A stretch of 48,743 nt of DNA from a virus: positions 1-48,743 of IMG/VR virus record IMGVR_UViG_3300044695_005834; one strand, 5' to 3'. The notes below the pieces were generated by a model, which was not told where the DNA came from, ran no database searches, and saw only the letters and a list, made by a program, of their open reading frames with translations. The position numbers and the translations under genes are program-made. Every line of letters begins with the position of its first letter. Position 1 is the first letter of the stretch. Below are positions 8,422 to 47,965 of the stretch, piece by piece.

Positions 8422-8709
8422 TCACCTTTTCGCTTCGTAGAGGAACCCTTTTTCATAAGCCTCGGCAACGTGCGTTTTGTGAATCTTGTCATGGCACTCG
8501 GCGCACACAGGGAGCCAGTGTTCGGAGGCGCACAGCAGACGACCTTCTCGGCCTGCCATGTGGTGAATGTGTCGCGCCTTTCGAGTTCTGAACTGGCACC
8601 ACGCCTCGCAGAACGCATGAATGGCGAGAAACGCAGCCCGCATCCGTAGATACTCAGCGGATTGCTTCGCCCGCTTTTTCGAGATTCGGCGTAAAGGGGA
8701 GCGTTTCAT
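8422..8709 (-). CDS. HNH-type endonuclease-like protein
   Basis: A 95-residue phage HNH-like protein. The N-terminus is very basic (RRISKKRAKQ). Cys residues near 34-38 and in VCAECHDKIH (about residues 69-77) would bind structural zinc. IHHMAGR (about 48-54) supplies the His pair typical of the nuclease core, with HDKIH as the third element. Small phage HNH proteins nick or cut DNA and some assist packaging or Holliday processing. It overlaps the helicase stop by 4 bases (coupled) and its 3' end abuts the palindrome array. Confidence 0.7.
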   Translation of the reverse strand: MKRSPLRRISKKRAKQSAEYLRMRAAFLAIHAFCEAWCQFRTRKARHIHHMAGREGRLLCASEHWLPVCAECHDKIHKTHVAEAYEKGFLYEAKR

Positions 8710-10700
8710 GCCTGTTTGTAGCCGAGTTCCGCGTAAATGTCCCGCCTCTTTTGCGCGTGCTTCCGCATCAGCCCGTGAAACGTGTCCTTGAAGTCGTAGA
8801 TGATCGCACCCTTTTTACCCTCGCAGATACGCAAGGCGCGGCCTGTCCTTTGGATGGTTTTCACTTCGCTCCTCCCGCCCGATACCATGATTAGCACTTC
8901 GATGCGCGGCACATCGGCACCCTCATCAAAAAGCGAGGTCGAGACGACACGGTTCAGCTTCCCGCTCCGAAAGTCGTCCATCGTCTGCTTCCGTTTCTTT
9001 TTACCCATAGCCGCATAGCAGGCCACCGCCCCCAGCAACTGATCCGCCATCCATTGCGCGTGCTCCACCTGATTGACGAGCACAAGGGTAGGTTCCGAGT
9101 GCGAGAGCGCAGCCTTGATCGCGGCCTTGTTGCGCTCCTGATTCTTCACGATGCCATGCTCCACAGCACACAGCCACGCGCATTGCCCCCATAACTGCCC
9201 CTCGTCGCCCTTGAAAAACTTACCACGCCAACGCACCATCTTGTCCGTCTCTGCCTCCACGATCTGCCCTGCCATGATGTCCGAGGCGTCGAGCCACACC
9301 ACCGAGGCACTTGAAAGAGTGTGGATGACGGATGCTCTGGAGATCGTGTGGATGTCTCGCCAGAAGTCTTGAAACATCGTGTCGCGTTCGTCGTTCCCTG
9401 TCTCAGGTGTCGCGGTGAATCCCCACACAGCACCGAGGCACGTAGCGATGGACTCGCCCCATTGAGGCGCGGTGGAATGATGACAGTTATGAACTAGGAT
9501 ACCGTTTGCGAAATAGTTGTGCTCACACTCAACTTCGAGATTATAGACAACACCGCCTGAACACACTCCTCCAAATGTTCCATCACTTGTTTGTTCTTGA
9601 ACCGCAACATCGTCCACCCTAGCCCACGCAAAAGCTCCTCCTTCTTCGTATCTTGGGCTTGCCGTGAAAGTAGTCCGTGACTCAGGCCGTCCACTTCGAT
9701 CCCTATTTTCAGAAGAGGGTGAGCAACGTCTATCTTGTAGCAGGTTGGGTATCCGTTGCCCCTTTTGATTCCCGTTGGGACGGCATACGAGATCGCCCAC
9801 CCCAAAGCGTTCGCTAGTCGCATTTCTGGCGCAGTTGGTGGCCGTCCGTTCCCTCCCCTCACGAAAGGGCGATGCCCCATAGCCCGCAGCGTCATAGACA
9901 TTTTCTCCCGCGCCTCTTTCTTCCGCATTGGGTTGTTCCTCTTCATTCGCTCCGAGGCATACTTCAGATTTGTTCGCGCCATTGTTTCTGACGAAACCTT
10001 TCTGCGATACTCCTTTGAACATCGGGTCGAACAATAAACCCCGATTCCCTTCACTACCCTGTCCCGTTGATACTTGGAAAAGAGCGTTACTTCCTTGTGG
10101 CACCATTTGCAGTTTTGAGTGTTCACACGTGGTGAGTCTTAGCACCATTGAGCCGCTTTGCAAGTCTTTTGCCTTCTCGTATTTTTCACCCGTCCAGAAA
10201 GGATGTTCTGGCGTGCAATATATCACGCCTCCACTGAATGTTACGCGCACCAATCTTTGCGTCACCCGTTTGGATGTTCTTGTCACCTTCCTGAGTTGGA
10301 TCGAGTCGGTGTCATGGCAGAACGTCTCAACGTAGTCGCCAACTTGTATGTCCTCAATTTTCGCCCCGCTCACAAGCGTTCCAGCGGGAAAGCATTCATC
10401 CACAACCAGCACGTCTCTGTCGCTCCAATCGGTATTCGCAGCCGCACAGCGGATCTTCACGTCGAGGTTTGCCGTAGCGGGAAACCCGTCGAGTGCGCGG
10501 CGGGCCTGCTCGCATTGCTCGATGGTGTTTGCCATCCACCCCACGCGCACGGGTCGCTCGCGCACCTTGGCCGAGATCACAGCGTCGAGTGCGCCCGCAG
10601 CGATGACGGTCTTGCCCGATCCCGCAGGTGCCACGATGCACGCCCGCCGCTTTCGGGAAATCCACGCGACGGCTTGAGCCTGTTCTGGACGGAGTATCAT
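8706..10700 (-). CDS. SF2 DEAD/DECH-box helicase interrupted by an intein
   Basis: A 664-residue precursor. The host protein is a superfamily-2 ATPase. Motif I is APAGSGKT (24-31). Motif II is split as DE (101-102) and CH (406-407). Motif III-like is FTATP (428-432), and the second RecA domain has STSLFDEGADVP (587-598) and motif VI QRTGRALR (617-624). Removing the intein (103-405) yields a helicase of 361 residues, normal for phage SF2 enzymes that remodel DNA in replication or recombination. It follows a 71-aa gene (4-base overlap) and precedes the HNH gene. Without splicing the DECH box is split, so activity should depend on splicing. Confidence 0.9.
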   Translation of the reverse strand: MILRPEQAQAVAWISRKRRACIVAPAGSGKTVIAAGALDAVISAKVRERPVRVGWMANTIEQCEQARRALDGFPATANLDVKIRCAAANTDWSDRDVLVVDECFPAGTLVSGAKIEDIQVGDYVETFCHDTDSIQLRKVTRTSKRVTQRLVRVTFSGGVIYCTPEHPFWTGEKYEKAKDLQSGSMVLRLTTCEHSKLQMVPQGSNALFQVSTGQGSEGNRGLLFDPMFKGVSQKGFVRNNGANKSEVCLGANEEEQPNAEERGAGENVYDAAGYGASPFREGRERTATNCARNATSERFGVGDLVCRPNGNQKGQRIPNLLQDRRCSPSSENRDRSGRPESRTTFTASPRYEEGGAFAWARVDDVAVQEQTSDGTFGGVCSGGVVYNLEVECEHNYFANGILVHNCHHSTAPQWGESIATCLGAVWGFTATPETGNDERDTMFQDFWRDIHTISRASVIHTLSSASVVWLDASDIMAGQIVEAETDKMVRWRGKFFKGDEGQLWGQCAWLCAVEHGIVKNQERNKAAIKAALSHSEPTLVLVNQVEHAQWMADQLLGAVACYAAMGKKKRKQTMDDFRSGKLNRVVSTSLFDEGADVPRIEVLIMVSGGRSEVKTIQRTGRALRICEGKKGAIIYDFKDTFHGLMRKHAQKRRDIYAELGYKQA
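9486..10394 (-). mobile_element. Intein in helicase motif II (residues 103-405)
   Basis: Splicing elements are complete. Block A begins with Cys103 (CFPAGTLVSGAKIEDIQVGD). Block B has TPEHPF (163-168) with the conserved Thr and His. Blocks F/G are VVYNLEVECEHNYFANG to VHN (384-405), followed by Cys406 as the +1 nucleophile. Between them lies a roughly 190-residue Gly/Arg/Glu-rich linker that does not resemble any in-frame homing endonuclease. That stretch is the out-of-frame reading of the nuclease gene at 9494-10126. Base composition is more AT-rich than in the flanking exteins, consistent with transfer. Confidence 0.9.
9494..10126 (-). CDS. Vsr-like (EDxHD/DUF559-type) homing endonuclease nested out of frame in the intein
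   Basis: A 210-residue frame offset by +1 from the helicase/intein frame, wholly inside the intein. An N-terminal CxxC (6-9) with CxxxC (32-36) looks like a zinc finger. A NUMOD-like basic helix pair follows (NNPMRKKEAREKMSMTLR, 64-81). The C-terminal domain has the Vsr/DUF559 nuclease pattern: Glu101, Asp133 (YKIDVA), EVDGLSH (144-150), Asp159 and LRF (174-176). These are the acidic and His positions of the EDxHD family known from fractured split-intein genes. The start is GTG 10126 after CTCACCAC. It also overlaps the intein's C-terminal splicing block. It probably cuts intein-free alleles to spread the intein. Confidence 0.82.
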   Translation of the reverse strand: MNTQNCKWCHKEVTLFSKYQRDRVVKGIGVYCSTRCSKEYRRKVSSETMARTNLKYASERMKRNNPMRKKEAREKMSMTLRAMGHRPFVRGGNGRPPTAPEMRLANALGWAISYAVPTGIKRGNGYPTCYKIDVAHPLLKIGIEVDGLSHGLLSRQAQDTKKEELLRGLGWTMLRFKNKQVMEHLEECVQAVLSIISKLSVSTTISQTVS

Positions 10701-46055: not shown

Positions 46056-46934
46056 CTACTTTTGCTTCCCTAAACTCACCGCATCCCATTCCTTGAACAG
46101 ATTCTTCAACCACGGGAACATCGGAAACTCGCCGCGCTTGGTAGCCATGCAATGCTCGAAAACGGCAACCCCTTTGTAGCTATGCGCGATGCCGAATCCA
46201 CCCCATTTCGGGGCATCCCCAATTTCTATCGGGACTCCCGACATTCTGAAGCCTAGCTCAAACGTGAACTTGTCGCCGTGTCCAAGATTAAACCAAACAT
46301 CGGTATGCTCGTTTAACCAGCCCGTCCAGCGCAACCCCATCCACCCCTCAACCTTGTCCACTATGAACTGCCCGGTTTCCCATTCCACATCCGGCAGCAA
46401 CCCGCAATAGGTGTATCCCCAGCGGCTCGGATGGCACGGCTTAACGTCATTGAAGAATAACGTCTTGCCTTCGCACAACTGGAATATCGTTTCCGGCTTC
46501 ACCACTGGAAAGCAGTCAGCATCTATGAACATGACATGACGCCAGGGGCTATGCGTGACAGCGTAATTCTTCAACACCCACCCGCTCATCTTCCGAACCA
46601 TGTGCTTCCTTAGGACGTTGAACACGTTGACCGTTTCTACCCTCATCTCTGCAAAACTTTTCGCGGCCCATACTGGCATCTCCTTCTCGCCTATGTGCCA
46701 CACCTGTATCGGCAACTCGCACCCCAATTCCCGTAGCCTTCGGCATAACACCCAACTCCATGACAGATACTTCCCGCCACCAGCTATCACAATACCGCAT
46801 CCGGTGCAGTCGGGTGGCTCCGATTCCAGTAGCCGATTCTTCCTGACATGATTCACCATTGCGCCGCATCGCTGTTCCTCAAATCGAGGCAACCCGATGC
46901 TGTCCTTCGCCTGCGTTTCAGCAAGTGACGGCAT
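46056..46934 (-). CDS. Mannosyltransferase-like (GT71-type) glycosyltransferase
   Basis: A 292-residue GT-A protein. TGCGIVIAGGGKYLSWSWVLCRRL resembles the first strand/helix of eukaryote-type alpha-mannosyltransferases (GT71/Mnn1-like), with HVMFIDADCFPVVKPE (about 133-148; DAD is the DxD site) and KPCHPSRWGYTYCGLLPD. The stop abuts the terminase stop (convergent, no gap). It is the fifth or sixth glycosyltransferase of the window and is transcribed with a 52-aa leader gene. Confidence 0.75.
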   Translation of the reverse strand: MPSLAETQAKDSIGLPRFEEQRCGAMVNHVRKNRLLESEPPDCTGCGIVIAGGGKYLSWSWVLCRRLRELGCELPIQVWHIGEKEMPVWAAKSFAEMRVETVNVFNVLRKHMVRKMSGWVLKNYAVTHSPWRHVMFIDADCFPVVKPETIFQLCEGKTLFFNDVKPCHPSRWGYTYCGLLPDVEWETGQFIVDKVEGWMGLRWTGWLNEHTDVWFNLGHGDKFTFELGFRMSGVPIEIGDAPKWGGFGIAHSYKGVAVFEHCMATKRGEFPMFPWLKNLFKEWDAVSLGKQK

Positions 46935-46937
46935 ACG

Positions 46938-47096
46938 TTAGATCGAGAACACAGGTTCAGCAGATCGCGCTTCACGTTCCTGCTCCAATTCAGCAAGAAA
47001 CCGATCCTCGCGCTCACGCCGAAGCTGCTCGTCAGCCAGTTCATTCAACTGCTCATCAGTCAATTCCCCGGTCAAGATGTCAAACGGTAATCCCAT
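46938..47096 (-). CDS. 52-aa charged helical protein
   Basis: ATG 47096, 12 bases after the -10 of the 47109-47136 promoter. Very acidic and basic residues alternate (GELTDEQLNELADEQLRRERE; read 52 residues), forming an amphipathic helix. It precedes the mannosyltransferase-like gene by three bases. No family recognised. Confidence 0.55.
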   Translation of the reverse strand: MGLPFDILTGELTDEQLNELADEQLRREREDRFLAELEQEREARSAEPVFSI

Positions 47097-47108: not shown

Positions 47109-47136
47109 CTTTTACGGGGTTTAACGATTACGTCAA
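47109..47136 (-). promoter_or_regulatory. Leftward promoter for 52-aa gene and GT71-like gene
   Basis: Leftward TTGACG (47131-47136), a 16-base spacer and TAAAAG (47109-47114), 12 bases before ATG 47096. It shares TATTGACG with the promoter at 43242-43270. The G-rich array of 47164-47232 lies just upstream of it. Confidence 0.45.
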
Positions 47137-47163
47137 TACCTTTTATCGGGGTGAAGTGCAGCA

Positions 47164-47232
47164 GGGTTATAGGGATGCAGGGCAGCAGGTGTATCCGGTG
47201 TAGAAGGGTTTAGCGGGTTATGGTGAGACGGG
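47164..47232 (+). repeat. Phased GGG/GGT array (8-9 base steps)
   Basis: GGG or GGT occurs at 47164, 47172, 47180, 47188, 47197, 47206, 47215, 47222 and 47230, i.e. steps of 7-9 bases. The first three or four runs have 5-base loops, compatible with a G-quadruplex on the plus strand. It is upstream of the leftward promoter at 47131. Confidence 0.55.
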
Positions 47233-47577
47233 TGCAGCAATCTCCTACTAAAAGAAGATTACTGAAAGAGCTTCGCGGTTTAAAGGAGCCACGGTATGCA
47301 GTTTCAACAGTCCTAGCGCGATGGTCTGACTTTGCCTACGCTTGCCCTGCTTTCGTGGGGCTGACTGTAATCTCTCAGCTTGCGCCGATCAACATTAAGA
47401 GGGAAGTGATAGTGATACCCAGCCCTCTCCATCCATTCGTCGGGGAGTCCTTCTCAGGTTAGTTCCATAGTCGAGGGATAGAACCCCGCCCGATTACACG
47501 CTTGGAGCTTCCACCAAGAGGCCGGATACGCTGGCCCCGCTCTAGGAGAGTGCTGAAATGCTAGTCCCTAGAAAAAC

Positions 47578-47610
47578 GAAACCCAAACCGGAATCAGCGG
47601 TTTGGGTTTC
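47578..47610 (-). terminator. Strong rho-independent terminator (leftward)
   Basis: GAAACCCAAACC (47578-47589) and GGTTTGGGTTTC (47599-47610) form a perfect 12-bp stem with a 9-base loop. Leftward it is followed by GTTTTTC, a U-rich tail. No gene precedes it on that strand, so a leftward RNA from about 47671 or beyond is implied. Rightward it lacks a U-tract. Confidence 0.7.
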
Positions 47611-47671
47611 AACTGTCTTGTAGCCCTAGTTACCCAAGGCATCAGTGCTTTGCTCGCTCCGCTGATTCCGG
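47588..47671. repeat. 13-base complement between terminator loop and downstream sequence
   Basis: CCGGAATCAGCGG (47588-47600), which is the terminator loop plus two stem bases each side, is the exact complement of CCGCTGATTCCGG (47659-47671). The two 13-mers could pair in one RNA and compete with, or lock onto, the terminator hairpin. Confidence 0.7.
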
Positions 47672-47736
47672 CTTGCGATCTGCACGGATACTGCCATGCC
47701 CGTTCTATCCGTCAAATCTTTTTTCAATAAATCTTC

Positions 47737-47765
47737 TTGACCTTGCTAGTAAAGTGCCATATCAC
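47737..47765 (+). promoter_or_regulatory. Rightward promoter of the right-end cluster
   Basis: TTGACC (47737-47742), a 17-base spacer and TATCAC (47760-47765), 14 bases before ATG 47780. AAAGTGCCAT (47751-47760) overlaps the spacer and -10 and matches the operator-like 10-mer of the 2173-2182 control region, so the two rightward clusters may be co-regulated. Confidence 0.5.
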
Positions 47766-47779
47766 CTACGTCCACACCT

Positions 47780-47965
47780 ATGAAATGCCCACGCTGCAAA
47801 CTCGTCTGGAAAGTCAAAGCATACGCCGATGGAGGGAAAATCCGCTGGCGCAAAATGACAAAGGAACAACGCCTCGCATGGGCTGCAAAGATGCAGGAGG
47901 GGCGCAGGAAGCAGGTAATCGAAGCACGGCTGGCGAAGGAACAAGCTAAAACACAACAACCATGA
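47780..47965 (+). CDS. Small basic protein with CPRC, 61 aa
   Basis: Begins MKCPRCKLVWKV (one Cys pair) and continues as a Lys/Arg/Glu/Ala-rich helix (TKEQRLAWAAKMQEGRRKQ). The remaining zinc ligands are missing, so the pair may act in a dimer or be a redox site. First gene of the rightward right-end cluster. Function unknown. Confidence 0.5.
   Translation: MKCPRCKLVWKVKAYADGGKIRWRKMTKEQRLAWAAKMQEGRRKQVIEARLAKEQAKTQQP

Follow-up and report, generated by a model that had tools for sequence, protein, structure and literature searches.

Four versions of a short element from related, uncultured phages keep the loop of an intrinsic terminator complementary to the loop of a 5' hairpin while the sequences of the loops change. 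The element lies in the window, by which we mean the whole virus record of 48,743 bases that was analyzed, and it appears to encode a leftward non-coding RNA that folds into a 5' hairpin and one or more middle hairpins ahead of a long intrinsic terminator (Table 1). Because both loops have changed together in four versions of the RNA, the pairing itself seems to matter. We consider it probable that this RNA of about 110 nt folds so that its 5' loop kisses its terminator loop within one molecule, an arrangement that would close the RNA or mask its seeds.

Table 1. Features of the element and its surroundings, in window coordinates
Feature	Position	Strand	Basis
Putative small RNA, ~110 nt, beginning just upstream of the first hairpin and ending with the U-tract	47572-47681	-	Comparison of alleles A to D
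Intrinsic terminator hairpin, 13-bp stem, 7-nt loop CUGAUUC (47591-47597)	47578-47610	-	Sequence
Terminator U-tract	47572-47576	-	A-run on plus strand, giving U's in the leftward RNA
Middle hairpin GCCUUGG-GUAA-CUAGGGC	47623-47640	-	Sequence, alleles
5' hairpin, outer stem UCGC...GCGA, loop GAAUCAG (plus-strand CTGATTC, 47662-47668)	47654-47678	-	Sequence
13-nt segment, perfect complement of the terminator loop and three closing bases on each side	47659-47671	-	Sequence
Promoter-like TTGACG (47715-47710), 16 nt, CAGTAT (47693-47688), with TGG before it	47688-47715	-	Sequence
Divergent promoter-like TTGACC-17-TATCAC, outside the RNA, preceding a small rightward ORF at 47780	47738-47766	+	Sequence

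The terminator, its distal complement, and the extent of the RNA

The arms of the terminator (47578-47590 and 47598-47610) form 13 bp plus one weaker pair around a loop that reads GAATCAG on the plus strand. The preliminary description had proposed a leftward terminator with a loop of 9 bases; the terminator is confirmed, and the pairing given here leaves a loop of 7 nt. Its further observation, that the loop and closing bases have a 13-base perfect complement, also holds: CCGGAATCAGCGG (47588-47600) is the perfect reverse complement of CCGCTGATTCCGG (47659-47671), and when read as leftward RNA the pairing extends beyond the 13 nt to 17 pairs, including one G.U. Among perfect inverted repeats of 12 bp or more whose arms are 20 to 100 nt apart, this one is unique in the whole window, and the same scan of ~184 kb of related sequence returned only the homologue of this pair. 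Shuffling the upstream part 20,000 times never produced the 13-mer. As had been stated, no protein gene explains the pairing, insofar as none of the window's ORFs of 40 aa or more does so; allele D (see below) has a 255-aa ORF spanning the site and the same stretch of the window only a 42-aa ORF, and a protein-coding explanation was rejected.

The direction of the RNA is indicated by two features. The stem pairs that depart from Watson-Crick geometry are G.U on the leftward strand (one in the stem of allele B, one in that of D, and several in the middle hairpin), and in all four alleles a stable, G+C-containing terminator stem is followed on its 3' side by a U-rich run; both favor a leftward RNA. 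A rightward RNA is disfavored, since the minus-strand G.U pairs become A.C on the plus strand.

We infer that the small RNA is expressed from a start near 47681, a 5' end placed by a weak match to a promoter (TTGACG-16-CAGTAT) at which a promoter scan gave no call; this region is near-identical across alleles A, B, and C, and its -10 element is not kept in D. The scan likewise made no call at the divergent promoter-like sequence. The predicted RNA is shorter in allele B, at ~80 nt. The outer stem of the 5' hairpin is conserved in A, B, and D and takes the form GAU.GCA/UGC.AUC with a bulge in C. The middle hairpin is paired in every A and D sequence, with two one-sided variable pairs that stay paired through G.U, and its GUAA loop is also found in B.

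Relatives and the four alleles

Relatives were sought with the neighboring large gene, which we read as terminase-like and which had no match in Pfam or PHROGs, together with conserved DNA. A counterpart of the element is present in about a dozen IMG/VR contigs related to the window; the scans gave no match in named phages or in bacterial and archaeal genomes. Further pattern scans returned only the known contig set and one additional contig (L057), which was rejected as a chance match within apparent coding DNA. The counterparts fall into four alleles: A (the window, L003/L004, L006, L011, and L012), B (L007 to L010 and L019), C (L005), and D, carried by a more distant record (G006). Alleles A, B, and C occupy a homologous place near the terminase-like gene, whereas D lies ~8.7 kb from the large gene of its genome.

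In RNA form, the terminator loops are CUGAUUC in A, CUUGAUC in B, CUCGAC in C, and UCUCGACAU in D, and the corresponding complements in the 5' hairpin are GAAUCAG, GAUCAAG, GUCGAG, and AUGUCGAG, the last of these covering eight of nine loop nucleotides. In each of the four alleles an exact loop complement of 6 to 8 nt adjoins a constant UCGC anchor in the 5' hairpin. The terminator stems of B and C differ from that of A. The terminator-side flanks of B and C are ~99% identical while their cassettes differ, which argues that the cassette has been exchanged as a unit, and the loops appear to be exchangeable between alleles. The best or near-best match of each loop is its own partner; C and D have the 6-mer GUCGAG in common and their loops cross-pair, so these two are not fully distinct.

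To the left of the terminator, at 47150-47560 in the window and at the same place in L005, L010, L011, L012, and L041, lie ~350 to 830 nt of non-coding DNA that differ almost completely between close relatives, with patches such as GAATTGCCGCCTTCACCATGTTNCAGGGCTGCGG shared by L012 and L041. As a candidate large structured RNA, the L041 flank had a folding energy no better than that of shuffles. ARAGORN at default settings found no tRNA or tmRNA in the variable flank, and the many inconsistent calls obtained at relaxed settings were set aside. A tRNA T-arm-like sequence, GGGTTCAATTCCC, is present in L005 (3715-3836, minus strand) and at the equivalent place in L010, without a default ARAGORN call; the Rfam tmRNA score in L005 was 12.9 bits against a cut-off of 47. 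An imperfect tandem repeat of a 24-mer (47143-47189) adjoins the variable region in the window, and related sequence occurs in L010, L005, and L012. In a D-type relative, a tRNA-Met beside the large gene (L014, 9596-9670; L041, 12846-12917) occupies the place of the small RNA in the A, B, and C phages.

Several features elsewhere were recorded in passing. The window encodes a helicase-like protein (8706-10700, minus strand), the middle of which matches an intein-splicing domain, and has two strong rightward terminators, at ~1133 and 25353, with the same loop TGTTAC on different stems. A reading frame at ~3119 of L050 has a LFSGGLDSTVLLYD motif that by eye is QueC-like and suggests 7-deazaguanine metabolism in the L012 phage, and a predicted ORF with a DPPW motif in L003 (12333-13034, plus strand) resembles, again by eye, MT-A70 adenine methyltransferases.

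Covariation of the two loops

The covariation analysis that had been proposed as a check was run, and the loop and the distal segment covary. Over an A-D alignment of ~110 nt, 15 of the 26 differing columns fall within the two partner segments; five of the seven kissing pairs have changed on both sides and none is broken. The terminator stem shows one two-sided change and one G.U in D, and the stem is kept. A formal count, which represents a single divergence (A/D) sampled by five sequences, found all 31 pairs kept in every sequence (100% of cells paired); slid controls were 25 to 53% paired, and the observed covariation score was reached in 0 of 500 shuffles.

Alleles B and C could not be aligned with the others and were counted as independent instances; the four alleles derive from ~12 records. 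An exact loop complement arose in shuffled upstream parts at frequencies of 0.7% for A, 0.09% for D, 1.6% for B, and 8% for C, the 6-nt complement of C thus being unremarkable by itself. Among the 24 terminator-like hairpins listed from the window and its relatives, only one other had a full-loop complement; it lies in a queC-like reading frame of G002 and was taken as chance. Chance as the source of the complementarity in the element was rejected on the shuffles, the covariation test, and the inverted-repeat scan. The two marks of a kissing pseudoknot, complementary loops and compensatory changes, are both seen between A and D, and B and C join them through complements of their own. Comparison of the alleles thus shows that loop-loop complementarity is maintained while loop sequence changes.

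Interpretation and alternatives

We suggest that the loop of the 5' hairpin kisses the terminator loop, most likely within one molecule, and that this contact would hold the two ends of the RNA together. Such a kiss might serve to close the small RNA and so protect it, or it might keep two seed loops masked until they are opened by a target. The sequence of the loops probably sets specificity, for example between self and other, as is suggested by changes that cluster in the loops while the rest of the scaffold stays constant. A broader proposal, that a family of phage RNAs uses a diversifying kiss between 5' hairpin and terminator as a self-recognition tag or head-to-tail self-assembly code that differs between co-circulating phages, is offered as speculation that we think unlikely to be correct in full.

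The same loops could instead pair between molecules and generate head-to-tail dimers or rings, as with the phi29 packaging RNA, and the compensatory loop changes fit that arrangement equally well. The head-to-tail assembly of phi29 pRNA is driven by just such a design, in which one RNA bears two different loops that complement each other (PMC7357161), and in A, B, and C the element is near the large terminase-like gene. On a rough estimate, however, the linkers of ~36 to 75 nt seem to give the loops enough reach to pair within one molecule, which is why we favor the intramolecular form; the distance of D from its large gene and the lack of any match to an Rfam packaging RNA family at gathering score in the window also speak against the phi29-like arrangement, and we regard pairing between molecules as rather doubtful.

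We give somewhat less credence to an antisense regulator of the P4 CI/P1 c4 or OxyS kind, in which the mutual match of the loops would be incidental or would come from a common target. Variable loops on a constant scaffold do resemble specificity elements, the 6-mer common to C and D could be read in this way, and OxyS kisses fhlA with loop seeds of 7 to 9 nt (PMC5575007). Exact mutual complementarity is nevertheless not explained by an antisense reading alone; the pair itself aside, the 13-mer has no perfect match elsewhere in the window and only a single one-mismatch match, and no Rfam C4 antisense RNA matched at gathering score in the window.

An attenuator, in which the distal segment would pair with the terminator and leftward transcription would run on, had been put forward beside a pseudoknot in the preliminary description. 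For allele A, folding predicts that a 17-bp helix involving the loop and portions of the two stem arms would be favored over the hairpin state by ~6 kcal/mol, kissing energy being left out of that figure; the 5' partner would be transcribed first, and leftward ORFs lie downstream (46938-47096 and 46056-46934). This long competing helix is confined to A: the complements of B and C are limited to the loop and could not displace the terminator stem, energy-only folding of B gives three hairpins, and D retains the terminator fold. The downstream ORF, moreover, has its own promoter-like sequence near 47122-47145 (read by eye), set apart by ~430 nt of variable DNA. The kissing pseudoknot, which the covarying loops support, is for these reasons favored over an anti-terminator, which as a conserved feature we judge to be improbable. 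A DNA-level element without any RNA, such as a protein-binding inverted repeat or a recombination site, is highly implausible, for although perfect inverted repeats can serve as protein sites and the cassette boundaries coincide with allele exchange, the G.U character of the stem departures on the leftward strand and the U-tract 3' of the stem in all alleles count against it.

Relation to known RNAs

In the open-licence literature, consulted mostly as titles and abstracts, we found no description of a small RNA in which a 5' hairpin kisses the loop of the RNA's own terminator. The loop of a terminator is usually treated as passive; here it is seemingly half of a matched pair that covaries with the RNA's own 5' end, and if real, the element would offer a compact natural experiment of four alleles on whether such pairing stabilizes the RNA, builds multimers, or lets phages recognize one another by allele.

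No Rfam family matched in the window at its gathering cut-off. A sub-threshold match to the sar RNA of P22 (RF00262; 29.1 bits against a cut-off of 43) falls on the terminator hairpin and was rejected; it lies on the opposite strand, the hairpin is of a generic terminator-like kind, and the 5' partner is absent. The P4 CI and P1 c4 antisense RNAs are phage small RNAs complementary to sites on the same strand, with variable specificity, but they pair with a separate target site, whereas the partner here would be the RNA's own terminator loop. The loops of OxyS, similarly, pair with fhlA mRNA and those described here with each other. Kissing loops that covary also occur in GOLLD and ROOL, large non-coding RNAs of phages that are often found near tRNAs (PMC12286853); these RNAs are ornate and span 600 to 800 nt, in contrast to ~110 nt here, and had no Rfam match at gathering score in the window, L014, L041, L042, or G002. 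The phi29 prohead RNA is likewise a small phage non-coding RNA with two mutually complementary hairpin loops, and two different loops of the one RNA pair between molecules (PMC7357161). The phi29 loops, however, form 4 bp around a three-way junction and build a ring, whereas the element described here would pair over 6 to 8 bp with one of its two loops set in an intrinsic terminator.
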